From the NCBI RefSeq assembly GCF_013260645.1, contig NZ_CP053921.1:992001-1056000 (forward strand): a stretch of DNA of 64,000 bases, read 5' to 3'. This stretch comes from Erythrobacter mangrovi (lineage in GTDB: Bacteria; Pseudomonadota; Alphaproteobacteria; Sphingomonadales; Sphingomonadaceae). The notes under the pieces were generated by a model. That model was not told where the DNA came from and did not search any database. It worked only from the letters and a program-made list of their open reading frames with translations. A program made the position numbers and the translations under genes. Of the stretch, positions 29,544-37,729 are shown one piece after another; positions within the stretch are counted from its first letter, which is position 1, and each line of letters opens with the position of its first letter.

Positions 29544-31409
29544 CTATCCCATTCGTCTGAGCAGCCAGGGGAAGCGTCCCCCGCTGCGTACGGTCAGTCC
29601 TTCGACCACGAGTTGCCGCGTCGCGCGCGGGCGCCCGTGACCATCGACCCAGAGGCTGTCCTCGAGTCCGATCGTGGCCTCGCCGCTATCGCCTCCAAGC
29701 CGGAATTGCCAGTAGCTTCCGTCAGGCAATGCCAGGCCAGCCCCGCGCCTGTCCTCGGACAGCCCTGCCTCGATCCCGTGACCGAGATGGAAACGGATCG
29801 CGAAACCTATCTTGCCGCGCTGACCCTTGCGCCCCGAAGGCTCGAGCACGTCTTCGCCGCGGAGTTCCTCACCGTCGGCCGACAGCAGCAAGATGCGGCG
29901 GTGCAGCAACCCGTGACGCGCGGCGTATCCGTTGTGCACGGCCTCCAGACGCGTCGCGTCGCGGCCGCGCTGCTTGACGGTGGATCGGGCAATGTCGACT
30001 TCCTCGACACCCTTGCCGATCTGCCCCTTGATCAGGACCGCAGTGGAATTGGCATCGTCGAGCACCAGCGTCGAATGCGCCGCCGTGCCGCGCAACCCCT
30101 GTTCGATCCGCACGGGCGTCTGCCCGCCGGCGAGTTCCGACCCGCCGCAATTGACGATGATTCGCTGCTCGCCGTTCGACAGCTCGAAGGCCAGCGTCGA
30201 GGCGCAACCAAACCGCGCGTGGCGGGCGCGCGGCGGCGGGGCGGAGTCCATAACGAGGATGCTCTTGCCCGCATCGATTCGCTGGTAGCCCCAGTGGCGC
30301 ATGTCCTTGCCCGGCCGCGCGCGAACGCCGCTGGCGGCAATCACGGCATCGAGCTGCGCCGCCGAGGTGGCGCCCGAACCCTGCCAGCTTCCAAGCCCCC
30401 GATCGCCCATCCGCAGGGATAGCAGCGGCGGCACCAGCAAGGTAATCATCGTTTCGAGCGCCGCAGGCGGATCGCGATCGACGGCGGCATAGCAGGCCTT
30501 GAGATCGACCAGCAGGCCGATTGCCTCGATCTGCGCCAGGGGGCTGCGCGAGAGCACCCCGCCATCATCGCTGACCAATTCGCCCAGAGCACGAATGAGG
30601 CCGGCCTCTCCATAGAGGCGGCGCGGACGCCCATCAGGCAGGAGCAACCCGGCGGCAACCACGGCAGCCCAGCCCGCAACCTGCCCCAGCCGATCTTCCG
30701 CCCGTGCCACCTGGCGATCGAGCCAGCGCGCGGTCGCTTCCATCGCCTCCAGCGCGCGGCTGCGCAACTTGGCCTCGCCGGACAGGATAAGCGGCGCATG
30801 AACCAGCCAGGCGAGCAGGCGCAGGCCAGCATGCTCGACCGTCCAGGCCGCCCCCTTGGCCGGCGTCGGATTGGCGATGAGCCATTTCGCCAGGAGCGCT
30901 TCACCCACGCCGGTGCACTCCTCACGCGGGGCGCAGGCGGCAAGATCACGCAGCCAGGTGAACCCATGAACCGTGCGAAGGAAGGGCGGCGTCAGCGGCG
31001 CCCCACTGGCAAAATCGACCTTCTCGATCGGGGCCTTGAGTCCATAGACGAGGAACTGCCCCGCCCTCAGCGCCATGCCCGCCGCACGTTCGCCCTGCAG
31101 GGGGCGCGACACCGTGCCGAGCAGGCGCGGTGCACTGGGCTTGCGCAGTGGCGCGGAGAGGACCGAGCCGGGAACGCCCATCCGGTAAGCCCAGCGCAGG
31201 ACCGAATCGACCGGGCCGGCACGCGGCGGCTGGAAATCCGACAGAACCAGCGCGTGCCCGGGTTCCAGCGGGATCGCTTCGGGCTGACTGGCTGGCGCAT
31301 TGGCGACGACCAAGGGCTCATCGCCAGCGGTGAGCGGCAGCGCGCTGACTTCTTCCGCAGCCCTGTCGTCCCCGAAAGGCCGCAGCAGGGTCCGCGCTGC
31401 GTCGGTCAT
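29544..31409 (-). CDS. heparinase II/III family protein
   Basis: A 621-residue protein. The N-terminal half is an alpha/alpha-toroid-like helical domain ([24 protein letters not shown]). The C-terminal half has the beta-sandwich of the heparinase II/III family with [24 protein letters not shown] and [14 protein letters not shown]. The family includes polysaccharide lyases, but this rpe-hep-purH arrangement is widespread in alphaproteobacteria and suggests a housekeeping envelope or polysaccharide role. No signal peptide is evident. The 3' end is 5 bp from purH and the 5' end overlaps rpe (ATGA). Confidence 0.86.
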
Positions 31410-32068
31410 TGCCCGCCCTTCAACGCGGCAATGTTGGCAGCATATTGCGCTGGCCCGCCCTTAAAGGTCGCCGAGCCGGCAACCAGCACATCGGCCCCTG
31501 CCTCAACACATTGACGGGCGGTCTCGACATTGACCCCGCCGTCGACTTCAAGGTGGATCGGGCGCCCGGTCTTTTCGATCATCTTGCGGATCGCTTCGAT
31601 CTTCTTGAGCTGGCTGTAGATGAAGCTTTGCCCCCCGAAGCCGGGATTGACGCTCATGACCAGCACCAGGTCGACGTCATCGATGAGATAGTCGAGCATC
31701 TTCGCCGGGGTCGCGGGGTTGAGCACCACCCCGGCCTTCTTGCCCAGACCTTTGATCGCCTGCACGGTGCGGTGGATGTGCGGCCCGGCTTCGGGATGCA
31801 CAGTAATGATGTCGGCCCCCGCATCGGCGAATGCCTCAAGGTAGGGATCGATCGGAGCGATCATCAGGTGCACATCGAACGGTTTGTCCGTGTGCGGGCG
31901 CAAGGCCTTCACCACCGCTGGGCCGATGGTGATATTCGGGACGAAATGCCCATCCATCACATCGACATGGATCCAATCGGCGCCAGCCGCATCGATGGCG
32001 CGCACCTCTTCACCCAGCCGGGCGAAATCGGCTGACAGGATCGAGGGGGAAATCAGGGGTGTCGCCAT
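31406..32068 (-). CDS. rpe: ribulose-phosphate 3-epimerase
   Basis: A 220-residue TIM-barrel enzyme interconverting ribulose 5-phosphate and xylulose 5-phosphate. The metal and phosphate motifs are in order: [61 protein letters not shown] and VAGSATFKG. It is the first gene of the rpe-heparinase-purH unit and is divergent from the RiPP locus. Confidence 0.96.
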
Positions 32069-32185: not shown

Positions 32186-32452
32186 ATGAGCGCGGTTCGC
32201 AAATTGGCGGGAAACTTCGTGGAAACCGACGTCGATGACGAGGTGCTGATCGTCGACCTTGAAGGAGGCGAGCTGTTCTCATTGCGTGGGACGGCACGCG
32301 ATACCTGGCGGCTTATCGATGGCCAGCGAAGCCTGGACGAGATCGTTGCGTCGCTTGCCGGGGAATATGACGCGCCCGAAGATCGGATCGCGGGCGATAC
32401 CGCAGCGCTGATCAACGAACTGGTCGATGCGGCGCTGGTTTCGCTCGCCTAG
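32186..32452 (+). CDS. PqqD family protein (RiPP recognition element)
   Basis: An 88-residue stand-alone PqqD/RRE domain. ETDVDDEVLIVDLEGGELFSL forms the strands, GTARDTWRLIDGQRSLDEIVASL the helix-turn, and INELVDAALVS the closing helix. In lasso-peptide loci this is the B1 protein, which binds the leader of the precursor and presents it to processing enzymes. It is the first gene of the RiPP locus, 51 bp upstream of the precursor ORF. A leader-binding role here rests on gene context. Confidence 0.9.
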   Translation: MSAVRKLAGNFVETDVDDEVLIVDLEGGELFSLRGTARDTWRLIDGQRSLDEIVASLAGEYDAPEDRIAGDTAALINELVDAALVSLA

Positions 32453-32503
32453 ATTTTTCCGGCCACTGCGCTATCTACCGAAGCCGATTTGAGGATGAGA
32501 CCG

Positions 32504-32641
32504 ATGAGCGACAAGGCAACCCGTACTGCTCCGCAGAAGCGCGAATGGACGGCGCCGGTCCTGGTTCGGCTGGGAACCATCCGCGACATTGCGGGCAACA
32601 TCGGTGCAGGTCGGCAGTCGCCGGTCCAGCTTCGGTCCTGA
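32504..32641 (+). CDS. RiPP precursor peptide, lasso-type leader (45 residues)
   Basis: The small frame sits between the PqqD and asparagine-synthetase-like genes, with GAGG about nine bases before the ATG. The leader reads KREWTAPVLVRLGTIRDIAG: W15-xx-P18-x-L20-xxx-G24-x5-A30 matches the lasso leader YxxPxLxxxGxxxxxT with W for Y and A for T. Cleavage one residue after position 30 would leave a 14-residue core NIGAGRQSPVQLRS. This core has no Asp or Glu, which lasso peptides need to close a ring, and does not begin with Gly. So the leader is lasso-like but the core is not canonical. Confidence 0.82.
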   Translation: MSDKATRTAPQKREWTAPVLVRLGTIRDIAGNIGAGRQSPVQLRS

Positions 32642-32661
32642 CCGACTGTCGCTGACACCCC

Positions 32662-34518
32662 TTGCTTGCTGCATGGAGCAACCGGGGCGGAGCGGTCCGT
32701 CGTCAACCGATCCTTGCGGCGCTCTCTGCCTATTCCGGCGACCGACCAGCGCTGGTCGCGGATAGCTTCGGCTCCATTGCCACCTGTCGGCCCGGTCAGC
32801 GATCGCCCCCGGTCGATGCCCCTACGCCCTACGCAGATGGTATCCTTGCCTTCACCGGCTGGCTGGACCGCGCCCCGGACAGGCACCAAACCGATACACA
32901 ATGCTACGCGCAAGCCCTCGAGCGATACGGCTCCGACGCCGATGATCGCCTGAGCGGCGCCTATGCCGCAGCGACGCTCTATCCCGACGGTCGCCTGCGC
33001 CTGTCGCGCTCGCCCTGGCAGGCGCCCCCGCTTCACTATGCGGCCCATCTGGGCGAAGTCATCGCCAGTTCGGTCCTGCGCGCGCTCTTTGCCTTCGGTA
33101 TTCCTCGCACGCTCGACCGGACGCGCGTTCTCAATGCGCTTTATCTCGATGGCGCCGGAGACCCGACTGCGGGCTGGTATTGCGGTGTCAGGAGCGTCCC
33201 TTTGGGCACTTCGCTGATCGTGAGTCCGGATGGATCCGTCGAGATCCAGCGCCAATACGATCCCTTCCGCGCATACGTGGATGTAGGGAAAGACCCTGCA
33301 CAGTGGGTCGCCGAGGCACGGTCCCTGATCGACGATCATGCGCGACTGGCAGCGAGCCGCTCGCAACATCCGGCGATTTCGCTGTCCGGCGGGCTCGATT
33401 CACCGATCGCAGCCGCAGCCCTGCTCAGGACGAAACCGGCGACTGCCCCCTTGAGCGTCATCTCCGTCCGACCATCCCGGTCATGGGACATGGTGACCGA
33501 ACCGGGCAAGTTCGGCGATGAGGGATCCCGGGCCGAAGAATTCTGCGCCATGCACGGACTGACGGCCGTGTTCACTCACGAAGGCGGCTTCGATCTCGAC
33601 CTGCAGGACTTGCATCGTGCAAGCGCCATCACTTCCCCTTTCATTGGTAATGGGGGGATGATCATGGCAGCCTATCGCGCGGCCGCTGCCGCGGGCGCGG
33701 ACTGGTTCTTCGATGCCGTCTCGGGAAACGACACAATCAGTGCCGAAGGCCATTGGGCCTATCCCGCCATGCTCGCTTCAGGCCGGTGGCGGCAGTTGCT
33801 GGCCGCACTCCGGCAGCGATCGAACGACCCGCGAGGCCTGGCCCGCAAATTCGTCTCGCTGGCGCTGATGCCGCACCTTCCGGTCGGAGCCCGCAACACC
33901 CTAAAGGTCCGTTTCTCGCGCGGCGCCGGGTCGGTTGCCGACAGGTCTTCCTTGCTCAAGCGGGCGGTCATTGCTGATTTCGGGCTGGCGACAGCCGCAA
34001 GCCAGCGCCAGACCGCGACCGGGCGCCGCCGGATGATTGAGCTGGCGTGGGCAGCAAGCGATTCGGGCATGGCTGATCTCGAACTTGGGCGCGAACAGCT
34101 CACCGGCCTGCGCCGCCGGGACCTGCTCGCCTATCGACCGTTGATCGAATTCTGCCTGTCGTTGCCCGATGAGGCATTCTTACGGGATGGGACTGATCGC
34201 TGGCTCGCGCGCGAGCTCGCACGCGGAATCATGCCGGAAAGCCAGCGGCGCGAAACCCGTTACGGCGGGCATAATGTCGACTGGCACAGCTATCTCGTCG
34301 CGAGGCGCGAGGAGCTGCTCGAAACCTTCGATGGCCTATCGACCCACCCCTGGCTGGGGGAGTGGATCGATGTCGAACGGGCACGCGGTTTGCTTGACGC
34401 CTTGCCGAACCGCACACCGCTGGACCCTGCGACTGCGTGGCCCCTGCAGTTCGGGATAGTCGGGACCGCGGCAATCGCCCGCTTCGTGGCGCAGGTGGAA
34501 GGTCGCAACGCCCTTTGA
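32662..34518 (+). CDS. asparagine synthetase-like protein, lasso cyclase homologue (RiPP C protein)
   Basis: A 618-residue protein. The N-terminal 200 residues resemble the degenerate glutaminase part of asparagine synthetase. The C-terminal ATP-pyrophosphatase domain has LSGGLDSPIAAA (SGGLDS at residues 242-247) and a later RETRYGGHNVDW segment. Lasso cyclases of this family adenylate a side-chain carboxylate and join it to the core's N-terminus. It starts at TTG 32662, the first in-frame start after the stop at 32653, with no strong ribosome site, and lies 20 bp past the precursor gene. The precursor core has no carboxylate side chain, so the real reaction is open. Confidence 0.85.
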   Translation: MLAAWSNRGGAVRRQPILAALSAYSGDRPALVADSFGSIATCRPGQRSPPVDAPTPYADGILAFTGWLDRAPDRHQTDTQCYAQALERYGSDADDRLSGAYAAATLYPDGRLRLSRSPWQAPPLHYAAHLGEVIASSVLRALFAFGIPRTLDRTRVLNALYLDGAGDPTAGWYCGVRSVPLGTSLIVSPDGSVEIQRQYDPFRAYVDVGKDPAQWVAEARSLIDDHARLAASRSQHPAISLSGGLDSPIAAAALLRTKPATAPLSVISVRPSRSWDMVTEPGKFGDEGSRAEEFCAMHGLTAVFTHEGGFDLDLQDLHRASAITSPFIGNGGMIMAAYRAAAAAGADWFFDAVSGNDTISAEGHWAYPAMLASGRWRQLLAALRQRSNDPRGLARKFVSLALMPHLPVGARNTLKVRFSRGAGSVADRSSLLKRAVIADFGLATAASQRQTATGRRRMIELAWAASDSGMADLELGREQLTGLRRRDLLAYRPLIEFCLSLPDEAFLRDGTDRWLARELARGIMPESQRRETRYGGHNVDWHSYLVARREELLETFDGLSTHPWLGEWIDVERARGLLDALPNRTPLDPATAWPLQFGIVGTAAIARFVAQVEGRNAL

Positions 34519-34554
34519 CAGCGGCGCCTCGCGGCGGGCAAGCGTGGTACACCC

Positions 34555-36216
34555 ATGACCCAAGCGTTCAGATCCTTCCTTGACCTGGCCGGTGCGCACC
34601 GGCTGGCCGCGCTGGTTCTCCTGTCGGCAATCGGCGCAATTACCGAAGGGTTCGGGCTGGTCCTGCTGGTACCGATGGTGGGGACGCTCACCGGCGGCCT
34701 GGCGCTGGTCGATCTTCCGTTTCCGCTACCACATTGGTCGCTGGCCACGCTGCTCGCGTTATTCATGGCGCTGGTCGTCTTGCGCTCGTTGGTCGACATG
34801 GCCCGCGCCCTGTCTGCCCAACGGCTCGAAGTCGCGGTGGTGGACGAGTTGCGCCGACGGGCTGTGGCGGCCCTGCTCGGTGCCGAGTGGCGTACGCTCT
34901 CTACCATGCAGCAAAGCGCCAACCGTGCACTGTTGGTAACCTCGGTCGACCGGGTCGGAGAGGCCGTGCAGCATGTCTCGACCCTGACCCGCGCGCTTGT
35001 TTCGCTCCTCGCGCTGGGCTTGGCGGCGCTCGCGCTTTCTCCGGCGCTGGCGATGGGATGCATGCTCGCAGGCCTGTTCGCGCTGGCCGCGCTGGGCGGA
35101 CTGCGGCGCAAGGCACGGATGCTCGGCGATGCGCTCTCCCGCCGCTACGAAGCGATTTATGCCCGGCTCGAAGCAACTCTGTCGGCGCTGCGGCTGGTGA
35201 AGAGCTTTAGTCGCGAAAGGGCCGAAGCCCAGAGCCTCGCCGACGAATTCAACAGCATGCGCAAGGCCGAGCGCCGCTACCTGGTTGGCACTTCGCTGGC
35301 GCGCGCCGCGCTGCAATCCGGGGCGGCACTGGCCCTGGCATTGGCGGTATGGATGTCGGTCGTGCTGTGGCAGGTACCTGCGCCGGTCCTGCTCGCCATG
35401 ACCGCCATCGCGGTCCGCGCGGTCCCGCTTGTCGAGGCCCTGCAATCGGCAGGGCAAGGCTGGGCCCATGCGGCTCCCGCATTCGATGATGCCCAGAGGT
35501 TGATTGCCCGGGCCGAGGCGGTGGCGGAGGTTCCGCCGGCAGGGGTCCAGCCCCGCCTTCGCAGGGCCTTGGTTCTTGATCGGGTCACCTATCGCCACAC
35601 GGTCGAGAGGGCCGGTGTGAGCGATGTCTCGTTCGAACTTGAAGCCGGAACGATTGCGGCGCTGGTCGGCCCCTCAGGGTCGGGCAAGAGCACCCTGGCC
35701 GACTTGCTCGGCGGCCTGCTTTCGCCGGATGAGGGCCAGATCATTGTCGATGGCTTGTCGCTTGCCGGGGGGCACCGAAACGCGTGGCGGCAGCGCGTCG
35801 CCTACGTCCAGCAGGAGGCCATGCTGTTCGGCGGTTCCGTCCGCCAGAACCTGCTTTGGGCTCAACCGGATGCAAGTGAAGCGCAACTCCACCACGCCCT
35901 GACAAGCGCCGCAGCACAATTCGTGGAGGAACTGCCCGGCGGGCTCGACTGCCAATTGAACGAGGGCGGACGCAGCTTGTCAGGAGGCGAGCGGCAACGC
36001 ATCGCACTGGCGCGCGCCCTGTTGCGCGACCCCGACCTGCTGATCCTCGACGAGGCGACCAGCGCGGTCGATCCGGAGAGCGAACTGGCGATCACCTCGG
36101 CGGTCCGTAGGCTCGCGGGCAGTTGCACCATCCTTGTCATTGGGCACCGTGGCGCACTGGTCGACAGCGCAGACCGGCGGATCAGCCTTGATAGCGGGCG
36201 GCTGGTCCAAGCATGA
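34555..36216 (+). CDS. ABC exporter (membrane domain fused to ATPase), RiPP D protein
   Basis: A 553-residue half-transporter. About six hydrophobic helices occupy residues 1-310. The ATPase follows with Walker A GPSGSGKST at 372-380, signature LSGGERQR from 475, and Walker B LLILDEAT shortly after. There is no N-terminal C39 peptidase domain, so it cannot remove the leader itself. In lasso loci this type exports the mature peptide. Same strand, 36 bp after the synthetase gene, and last in the locus. Confidence 0.9.
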   Translation: MTQAFRSFLDLAGAHRLAALVLLSAIGAITEGFGLVLLVPMVGTLTGGLALVDLPFPLPHWSLATLLALFMALVVLRSLVDMARALSAQRLEVAVVDELRRRAVAALLGAEWRTLSTMQQSANRALLVTSVDRVGEAVQHVSTLTRALVSLLALGLAALALSPALAMGCMLAGLFALAALGGLRRKARMLGDALSRRYEAIYARLEATLSALRLVKSFSRERAEAQSLADEFNSMRKAERRYLVGTSLARAALQSGAALALALAVWMSVVLWQVPAPVLLAMTAIAVRAVPLVEALQSAGQGWAHAAPAFDDAQRLIARAEAVAEVPPAGVQPRLRRALVLDRVTYRHTVERAGVSDVSFELEAGTIAALVGPSGSGKSTLADLLGGLLSPDEGQIIVDGLSLAGGHRNAWRQRVAYVQQEAMLFGGSVRQNLLWAQPDASEAQLHHALTSAAAQFVEELPGGLDCQLNEGGRSLSGGERQRIALARALLRDPDLLILDEATSAVDPESELAITSAVRRLAGSCTILVIGHRGALVDSADRRISLDSGRLVQA

Positions 36217-36344: not shown

Positions 36345-36842
36345 ATGACGCGCAGTTTCACCACCCTCGCCGGGATGACCGGCCTCGCCCTTGCCGCCGC
36401 AACACTCAGCATTCCAGCACAGGCGCAGTACCGCCAGACCATTACCGAGAACCCCGCGAAATGCGCGCCTGGCGCAGGCCCCGCCGTGCGCGTGACGATC
36501 ATGGGCATCAAGGAATCGCGCGGCACGATCCGCGTGCAAAGCTATCGCGCGACCAAGGAAGACTGGCTCGAGAAGGGGCGCTGGATCAATCGCATGGAGG
36601 CACCGGCCAAGGCCGGCACCATGTCCTTCTGCATGCCGCTACCGGCGGCGGGGACCTATGGGATAGCTGTGCGCCATGACCTGAACGGCAATGGCAAGAC
36701 CGACATCTTTTCCGACGGCGGGGCAATGTCGAACAACCCCAGCATCAACATCTTCAATCTCGGGAAGCCCAGCTACAAGAAGGTCGGCTTCACCGTGGAG
36801 AGCGGGGTCGAGGCAATCACGATCAATATGCGCTATCGTTGA
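36345..36842 (+). CDS. DUF2141 domain-containing protein, exported
   Basis: A 165-residue protein with a signal peptide (LALAAATLSIPAQA). The DUF2141 domain has GTIRVQSYRATKEDWLEKG, FCMPLPAAGTYGIAVRHDLNGNGK and SNNPSINIFN, the DxNxNxK turn being the family hallmark. The function is unknown. It begins 128 bp after the exporter gene, but nothing links it to the RiPP locus. It overlaps the Tam41-like gene by 10 bp, tail to tail. A second DUF2141 gene lies at 40766. Confidence 0.88.
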   Translation: MTRSFTTLAGMTGLALAAATLSIPAQAQYRQTITENPAKCAPGAGPAVRVTIMGIKESRGTIRVQSYRATKEDWLEKGRWINRMEAPAKAGTMSFCMPLPAAGTYGIAVRHDLNGNGKTDIFSDGGAMSNNPSINIFNLGKPSYKKVGFTVESGVEAITINMRYR

Positions 36843-37729
36843 GCGCGACGCTTGCGCCACAATTCCAGCGCTGCGCCCGGGGCCGCCAGCAACGGGTGCT
36901 TGGCCCGGAACGGCGTAACCGCAAGCGTGATCCCGGTATGCCGATGGAGCTTCCACGCAGCATAGTCGGCAGCACCCTCGAAGGTCGTGGTCGCCTTTGC
37001 GAGGCGAAGCAGGTTCAGCGCCTTGCCCAGTCGGGCGCGCTTGTTCCACCAATCTAGGAGTTGCTTGCGCGAAGCGGCGGCCATGGCTGGCACGAGCAAG
37101 TCGCCTTCGCGCATGAAGGCAAGCCCTTCTGCCTCCCACGCTAGCGGCAGCAGTCCTTCGAAATGCGACCTGTTGACCTCGAGTATCGAGTCTTCACGGC
37201 CTGCTTTCTCGATCCGGAACTCGGCCCGGTAGGTCGCCCGGAACAGCGCCCGCCAATAATCTTCGGCCTTGCCCTTGTCCGGCCCCAGGGTCGCCGCCAG
37301 CCGGGCCGCCGTTCTCGCAGCGCCTTCCACCGCCTCGGTGATCGTAGAGTGCGAGACCTCATCGTGGGCCCAGACCAGGGCACAAGGTTGGACGAAACGC
37401 GCCCAGATTGTCGTATCACGTGAGTTCCCTGAAGCCGCGCGGGCGAACTGGTCGAGCGACATGGTCGCAATCTTTGCGCGCAGAATCTCGCTACCAAAAG
37501 TCCACTCGCGATAACTCACGCGCGGCCAGATGCGTTCGCGCTGTGGGCCGGGTAGCAGCACATAGAAATCCAGTACGCCCTCAAGCAAGCCGGTGCGCAG
37601 GTTAGAACCATAGAACAGCACGCCGAGAGCGCCCGCTTCCTTGCCCAGCATGCCGGCATAGGCAGCGACTTCGGGCCGCACCTCGCGGTCCAGGTTTTCG
37701 CGGATACGAGCGGTGAGAGTTGCCGTCAC
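36833..37729 (-). CDS. putative Tam41-like nucleotidyltransferase (CDP-DAG synthase?)
   Basis: A 298-residue protein without an assigned product. Residues about 30-60 contain LGVLFYGSNLRTGLLEGVLDFYVLL, a nucleotidyltransferase-fold signature (G-S followed by D-x-Y) that resembles mitochondrial Tam41/Mmp37, which makes CDP-diacylglycerol from phosphatidic acid and CTP. The later SEILRAKIATMSLDQF and ARFVQPCALVWA also follow the Tam41 layout. The preceding gene on the same strand encodes a lipid kinase that would make phosphatidic acid, and the two overlap by ATGA, which supports the idea. This is an inference from motif and context. Confidence 0.6.
   Translation of the reverse strand: MTATLTARIRENLDREVRPEVAAYAGMLGKEAGALGVLFYGSNLRTGLLEGVLDFYVLLPGPQRERIWPRVSYREWTFGSEILRAKIATMSLDQFARAASGNSRDTTIWARFVQPCALVWAHDEVSHSTITEAVEGAARTAARLAATLGPDKGKAEDYWRALFRATYRAEFRIEKAGREDSILEVNRSHFEGLLPLAWEAEGLAFMREGDLLVPAMAAASRKQLLDWWNKRARLGKALNLLRLAKATTTFEGAADYAAWKLHRHTGITLAVTPFRAKHPLLAAPGAALELWRKRRAQR

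Follow-up and report, generated by a model that had tools for sequence, protein, structure and literature searches.

How an asparagine-synthetase-like cyclase could close a ring in a peptide that offers it no acidic side chain is the question raised by a four-gene locus in a 64,000-nucleotide stretch of the Erythrobacter mangrovi chromosome (G000:C1:992001-1056000, hereafter the window, from a genome assembled as a single contig of 3,058,693 bases). Known lasso cyclases activate an Asp or Glu side-chain carboxylate as an adenylate, which the N-terminal amine then attacks, and substitutions in lasso peptides are said to be well tolerated save at this ring-closing acidic residue (PMC13352647), whose presence at core positions 7-9 usually counts among the defining features of a lasso peptide (PMC10368454). 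We found that the window locus and most of its relatives carry an amide at that place, and that homologues of a lasso leader peptidase (B2) and of HPr kinase (K) are encoded at two further sites of the chromosome.

Open reading frames (ORFs) together with Pfam and NCBIfam profiles placed four consecutive same-strand genes in the order B1-A-C-D, with the following features (window coordinates):

32186..32452, + strand: B1, a PqqD-like recognition element of ribosomally synthesized and post-translationally modified peptides (RiPPs), 88 aa (PF05402 PqqD, E 1.4e-16)
32504..32641, + strand: A, the precursor peptide, 45 aa, MSDKATRTAPQKREWTAPVLVRLGTIRDIA followed by GNIGAGRQSPVQLRS (ORF and homologues)
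32504..32593, + strand: predicted leader of A, 30 aa, W..P.L..LG....IA, with the putative cut after Ala(-1)
32594..32638, + strand: predicted core of A, 15 aa, GNIGAGRQSPVQLRS, no Asp/Glu, C-terminal Ser
32615..32617, + strand: Gln8 codon (CAG), where lasso precursors have their ring-closing Asp/Glu
32662..34518, + strand: C, asparagine-synthetase-like (lasso cyclase-like), 618 aa, TTG start (PF00733 Asn_synthase, E 1.7e-10)
34555..36216, + strand: D, ATP-binding cassette (ABC) exporter, 553 aa (PF00664 ABC_membrane and PF00005 ABC_tran)

An earlier note on this DNA, made from its letters, had described these genes as a PqqD-type recognition protein, a 45-residue precursor, an asparagine-synthetase homologue with an SGGLDS site and an ABC exporter; all four lie where it put them with matching profiles, and gene order and domain matches bear out its likening of the locus to the B1-A-C-D skeleton of lasso loci. 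The PP-loop of C is intact (SGGLDS, within LSGGLDSPI), and translation from the TTG at 32662 begins MLAAW, in line with the MIAAW/MIA starts of its relatives. B1 scored under the cut-offs of the NCBIfam lasso PqqD models (E about 1e-6), and no peptidase domain was among the Pfam matches of D.

An amide at the ring position

The window core, GNIGAGRQSPVQLRS, has Gly1, Gln8 and Ser15 and is without Asp or Glu, and hence could not, as the earlier note held, form an ordinary Asp/Glu macrolactam as encoded. We gathered 134 precursor rows (72 database entries and 62 genomic ORFs), which after merging of duplicates gave 118 distinct cores, every one of them (118/118) with Asp, Glu, Asn or Gln at position 8 or 9. 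Position 8 was Gln in 98, Asp in 6 and Glu in 6, and the other eight had Asn9 (3), Asp9 (3), Gln9 (1) or Asn8 followed by Gln9 (1), so that the ring place is held by Gln/Asn in 103 cores and by Asp/Glu in 15. An acid at positions 7-9 is absent from 73 of the 103 amide cores and present in 30; for the Gln8 cores, 68/98 have no Asp/Glu at 7-9 and 58/98 have none at all, leaving the C-terminus as the sole carboxylate. The 98 Gln8 cores vary at every other position from 1 to 14; position 1 is Gly in 60, Gln in 28, Ala in 6, Val in 2 and Asn in 2, and the C-terminal residue of the 118 cores is Ser in 116 and Thr in 2.

Because the database precursors were found with a Gln-rich profile, the figure of 98/118 is biased upward, and loci found through C give a fairer count: in a 57-row clade of C, 54 loci have an amide and 3 an acid, and 35 of the 49 Gln8 loci in this clade lack an acid at 7-9 (33 lack any acid). 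The unusual core pointed out in the earlier note is thus a trait of the lineage. Judged from the sequences, Gln8 occupies the place of the ring-closing acid of the acidic relatives. Since the window core has no Asp/Glu at 7-9, we do not class its product as a lasso peptide and prefer to speak of a lasso-type pathway whose ring place is taken by an amide.

In three loci of the same genus (L028, L029 and L030) the precursors have Asn9-Gly10 in place of Gln8. Asn-Gly is prone to spontaneous succinimide formation, a tendency that could bear on ring closure there.

The precursor and its predicted cleavage register

All 57 loci of the C clade, that of the window among them, have a homologous precursor, and the protein database holds 72 precursor entries, one of them the window's own, named 'hypothetical' or 'uncharacterized protein' where the source gives a name. 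The earlier note had proposed a genome search for further copies, and the window copy proved to be the only strong one (E 7.1e-16, next best 0.19). On these three grounds the precursor, as its sequence indicates, is not a chance ORF. It had no Pfam match, and its sole NCBIfam match was to the lasso family NF033534, under the cut-off (E 0.039).

Most precursor rows share the leader W..P.L..[LIV]G...D[IV]A, and in 32 aligned precursors the W, P and G of the motif are invariant and the L nearly so, with Ile/Val at -2; residue -1 is Ala in 113 of the 118 distinct cores. The Y/W..P.L motif and Ile/Val(-2) that mark leaders of the lasso class are thus present in the sequence, and B1 is predicted to read this leader. 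Ile/Val(-2) leaders were already known, and the canonical leader has Tyr(-17), Pro(-14) and Leu(-12) (PMC10368454). With a cut after Ile-Ala, the Y/W..P.L motif of the Gln8 family comes one residue nearer the core than in the canonical leader. Acid relatives such as L105, which reads DAIA before the putative cut and GTAQVFGD after it, show the canonical spacing together with the same Ile-Ala step, which supports the register Gly1..Gln8. A gap-free alternative, with cores starting mostly with Pro, Ser, Gly, Arg, Ala or Lys and Gln at 7, seems less likely, and would leave the amide problem standing.

Locus L016 (genome G074) has two tandem precursor genes, at 1042-1170 and 1245-1373, ahead of one C gene, with cores GKPVPFRQAHNNRKS and GKPVPVLQDAGNRKS.

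Amide and acid cores alternate on the cyclase tree

For the phylogeny of C we used a quick IQ-TREE run on 88 rows, with ring-residue labels set by hand; L096, L111 and L125 were omitted as cut off or duplicate, and the precursors of L109, L112 and L115 lie on the strand opposite to C. The 57-row clade (SH-aLRT 100) holds all but one of the 55 amide loci, and it also has Glu8 loci (L075 and L090) and an Asp8 locus (L095), each grouped with Gln8 loci. The remaining amide locus, L104, stands outside the clade with Gln8 amid Asp8/Asp9 relatives, and the distant rows L032-L034 sit on long branches far from it. This tree requires acid and amide to have interchanged at least 5 times, a count that leaves out 18 of the 88 rows (17 unlabelled, and L032). 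Forcing the 54 amide rows of the clade into one group was rejected (log-likelihood 173 lower, p-AU 6e-11), in a test on the quick tree whose group was named after the tree was seen. From these two results it follows that amide replaces acid repeatedly at one place.

The PP-loop Gly-Leu-Asp-Ser is found in 57/57 rows of the clade, and on this ground C has probably kept ATP-driven activation. A role of C as glutaminase was also considered and set aside: Met-Cys occurs in the first 90 residues of the frame in no clade row, 6 rows show Met-Ser or Met-Thr in that stretch, and a simple start pattern is missing in 15/57 rows; Cys-type glutaminase chemistry is, on sequence, taken to be lost in this clade. 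A search of the PDB with C gave nothing at E <= 0.01. A search for C homologues among the genome contigs gave one match, L004, a 56-residue stretch of 33% identity that we set aside.

The leader peptidase and a kinase are encoded elsewhere

The earlier note had found no B2 leader peptidase, which is correct for the locus and incorrect for the genome. The only PF13471 match above the cut-off in the whole genome is a gene at G000:C1:2901448-2901762, more than 1 Mb from the locus; its 149-aa protein passed NCBIfam NF033537 'lasso peptide biosynthesis B2 protein' with 64.2 bits (cut-off 33). The genes of the lasso class, A with B1/B2 and C, are therefore all in this genome, A, B1 and C in the window and B2 outside it. 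The B2 gene adjoins an acyl-CoA dehydrogenase gene, and it has the same neighbourhood in 23/23 genomes of the genus that carry C. Among 37 genus genomes without C, in 7 of which not all PF13471 matches were fetched, the acyl-CoA-dehydrogenase-linked B2 is present in 6 and not in 24, 16 of the latter having no PF13471 match at E <= 0.001. Across a sample of the family, a PF13471 protein was found in 68/68 genomes with a C homologue (E <= 1e-20) and in 111/329 without (Fisher 5e-28, relatedness uncorrected). Cys (CLPQA-type) and His (HAW) motifs are present in 32/32 orphan B2 copies read. The same 32/32 copies (L001 1471-1920 and orthologues) have an extra conserved Cys, in TGxC[DE], besides the presumed catalytic one.

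A search for an HprK-related kinase identified K, a 298-aa protein at 117,605-118,498 of the window genome, whose matches to HprK_rel_A (E 3.9e-10) and PF07475 (E 3.7e-6) fell short of the curated cut-offs; a PDB search with K gave a weak match to HPr kinase (E 0.012). Of 147 relatives, 40 matched K at E <= 1e-10, and for 30 the match was strong (E <= 1.1e-70). In the window's genus, strong K is in 22/23 C-bearing and 6/37 C-less genomes (Fisher 5e-10, relatedness uncorrected), the one C-bearing miss, G006, being a 290-contig draft that is 91% complete. Our kinase motif patterns were too narrow (2/30 copies matched), and we therefore read the sequences, finding the His, the P-loop Lys and Asp-Asp in 30/30 genomic copies. 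An unlinked HPr-kinase homologue with His-Lys-Asp-Asp and a C-terminal Ser on the precursor, the marks of a kinase-type pathway, are thus both present.

Some other genera have K, B1, B2 and C together (for example L075, L079, L084-L086, L089-L095 and L125), some genera keep K-B1-B2-A-C-D in one chromosomal region, and further genera have only one of K and B2 near C, or neither. From these arrangements we read the split of B2 and K from B1-A-C-D as a derived state. Genomes G002, G011, G019, G022, G032, G055 and G042, where no clade C or B1 was found, yet keep the acyl-CoA-dehydrogenase-linked B2 and/or K; these genes may be either leftovers or used by another pathway. G031 has a second K-like match (C1:449491-450342) and a second B2 match (452188-452523) within about 3 kb of each other, which probably mark a further lasso cluster there.

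A proposed pathway and its rivals

The explanation we put first, tentatively and short of calling it probable, is a kinase-type (paeninodin-like) lasso-type pathway with its genes split over three sites, in which C would close a Gly1-Gln8 ring via the carboxamide, as an amidine or a lactam. In this pathway K (at 0.12 Mb) would phosphorylate the C-terminal Ser of A, B1 would bind the W..P.L..LG leader, and B2 (at 2.90 Mb) would cut after Ile(-2)-Ala(-1); C would then bind the 15-residue core, and the side-chain carboxamide of Gln8, activated with ATP on the PP-loop, would be attacked by the Gly1 amine to give an 8-residue ring, after which D would export the product. The ring would be an amidine if water is lost (-18.011 Da) and a lactam if ammonia leaves (-17.027 Da). 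The gene set and its co-occurrence, the conserved region, the constant place of Gln8 and the switching between acid and amide are seen in the sequences, whereas the leader cut, phosphorylation, ring bond and threading are predictions. PP-loop relatives that activate amide-like oxygens include argininosuccinate synthetase, TilS and QueC. A narrower version, in which C is a PP-loop amide-activating macrocyclase and attack of the N-terminal amine on an adenylated Gln8 (or Asn9) carboxamide gives a threaded macro-amidine, is to our mind unlikely, though worth stating.

Several results weigh against closure through the carboxamide. Asp/Glu occurs somewhere in 40/98 Gln8 cores and at position 7 or 9 in 30/98 (27 at 7, 7 at 9), and the latter cores could therefore, by letter, close an ordinary ring; Gln1, present in 28/98, might cyclise to pyroglutamate. 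The leader linker is one residue short, so that we infer the register Gly1..Gln8, as opposed to Pro1/Asn1..Gln7, from the sequences. C itself scored 54.2 bits against the NCBIfam lasso cyclase NF033535, far below the cut-off of 525, but the three acidic-core relatives tried fell short too (82, 79 and 132 bits). C-less genomes of the genus keep B2 in 6 cases, K in 6 and both in 5. Finally, no residue of C swaps consistently between acid and amide loci (in the four acid/amide pairs compared, 60 columns differ throughout, a list judged by eye), and C thus gives no sign of having been retooled for amides.

This last result is what would be expected if C always sees Glu, as in the main rival, which we rank next, below direct Gln8 activation and above a role of Gln8 outside the ring. 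Here an unlinked deamidase, or B2 with its transglutaminase fold, would first convert Gln8 to Glu8, from which C would make an ordinary lasso macrolactam, for a net -17.027 Da relative to the encoded core. Glu8 and Asp8 at the same place within the same C clade would suit such a step, as would the transglutaminase-like family of B2, with its Cys and His in 32/32 orphan copies. Yet acid members of the C clade also have B2, and mutation of Gln to Glu would do away with the need for the step, while Gln8 is kept in 98/118 cores. No recurring gene readable as a deamidase was seen in the 21 compared regions (mostly by eye; six window neighbours by Pfam), and the Pfam-less gene at 36833-37729, present in 14/21 of them, is missing from L181, L182 and L193-L196, all with Gln8 precursors. 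We therefore consider prior deamidation possible though rather doubtful.

It is unlikely, in our judgement, that Gln8 stands outside the ring as a recognition residue while C activates the C-terminal carboxylate (for a head-to-tail or other bond) or Asp7/Asp9 where present, or acts in some other way. The C-terminus is indeed the sole carboxylate in 58/98 Gln8 cores, with a C-terminal Ser in 116/118 cores, and Asp/Glu stands at 7 or 9 in 30/98; however, 68/98 have no acid at 7-9, and the C-terminal Ser occurs also in relatives that have Asp and a linked kinase; in paeninodin-type lasso peptides it is the residue on which the kinase is known to act (PMC9266682, PMC8498205), so that it needs no role in the ring. 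Such a reading also leaves unexplained why position 8 or 9 alternates among only Gln, Asn, Glu and Asp. Decay of a lasso locus, with B2 and K lost from the cluster and the core drifted, would fit a B1-A-C-D locus without B2 and K and the many genus genomes without clade C, but B2 and K lie elsewhere, with catalytic motifs, in nearly all C-bearing genus genomes, and the PP-loop and Gln8 are conserved at deep divergence, which makes decay very improbable.

Of the two findings that the earlier note had named as together speaking against its reading, a B2 gene elsewhere and an ordinary lasso ring in the mature peptide, the first has been made.

Conserved neighbours and spread of C

The B1-A-C-D locus is flanked by a DUF2141 gene and by the following gene, which served as a marker:

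31406..32068, - strand: ribulose-phosphate 3-epimerase (PF00834, E 2.2e-87)

The earlier note had also suggested comparing conserved neighbours, and in the 21 regions compared an epimerase homologue lies within the same 17-kb region in 20/20 regions fetched from 20 further genomes, which points to a locus that is old and vertically kept. The homologue of D was not grouped in 5/20 regions, which come from other genera (L183, L184, L186, L189 and L196), and the gene at 36833-37729 encodes a 298-aa protein without a Pfam family that recurs in 14/21 regions.

Many genomes of the genus lack clade C; of 10 rechecked, 7 had only weak matches to the C model (best E 3e-23), taken for other asparagine-synthetase-like proteins, and G008 and G053, which matched weakly (E 3e-11 and 5e-11), were counted as C-less. 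B1 was found in 0/9 C-less genus genomes, in a search that had no positive control. A sample of the order gave C-model matches at E <= 1e-40 in 75/396 genomes, all of the window's family (the 396 are not split by family), and a sample of the class gave matches at E <= 1e-30 in 22/327, most of them distant. Outside the family no Gln8 precursor was recognised in the class sample, where several loci, uncounted and judged by eye, have no clear precursor, and the few readable precursors carry Asp/Glu near position 8-9 (by eye, with no formal count). Loci L220, L223 and L225 fit the Gln8 pattern. L221 (G543) has a likely precursor at 1257-1373 with a shortened leader and a possible core, GRAEGPQRAGPQATGVKS, that breaks the pattern.

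Relation to known systems

The closest likeness is to the paeninodin type (PadeA/ThcoA, and SyanA/SyanK of Sphingobium yanoikuyae), which shares separate B1 and B2, an asparagine-synthetase-like C, an HPr-kinase-like K and a C-terminal Ser (PMC9266682, PMC8498205, PMC5067487). It differs in having Asp/Glu where the window family has Gln8, a contrast drawn with the SyanA core left aside, and in the window's genus neither B2 nor K is linked to the locus. The bsf cluster of Bradymonas sediminis likewise has an Ile/Val(-2) leader end, a kinase and separate B1 and B2, and its authors noted Ile/Val(-2) in Sphingomonadales; its precursor BsfA, however, is said to cyclise Gly1 with Asp8 and is phosphorylated on Ser3, and 'Gln' is absent from the main text of that paper (PMC10368454). 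Metanodin has an unusual first ring residue, Asn1, with a close match there that has Gln1 (compare 28/98 of our Gln8 cores); in contrast to the window family it has a conserved Thr(-2), and its novelty lies in the amine partner (residue 1), not the carbonyl partner (residue 8) (PMC12670498). The conventional isopeptidase/TonB-type cluster of Qipengyuania pacifica, probably a species of the window's genus, shares B2 and an asparagine-synthetase-like C, but has an isopeptidase, a gene not searched for in the window genome, and a TonB receptor (PMC9318849). Within the open-licence PMC literature, main texts without supplements, we found no lasso precursor whose ring is reported to close through Gln or Asn.

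Implications

About a hundred distinct precursors keep the amide, which would mean that an asparagine-synthetase-like enzyme forms a new kind of ring bond or that the pathway hides a deamidation step; an exact mass of -18.011 as against -17.027 Da would tell the amidine from the lactam routes. The pathway appears to be a lasso-type one spread over three chromosomal sites, and such pathways would escape genome mining that requires an acid at 7-9 or linkage of B2. If the amidine reading is true, this lineage would make a lasso peptide closed by an amidine in place of an amide.

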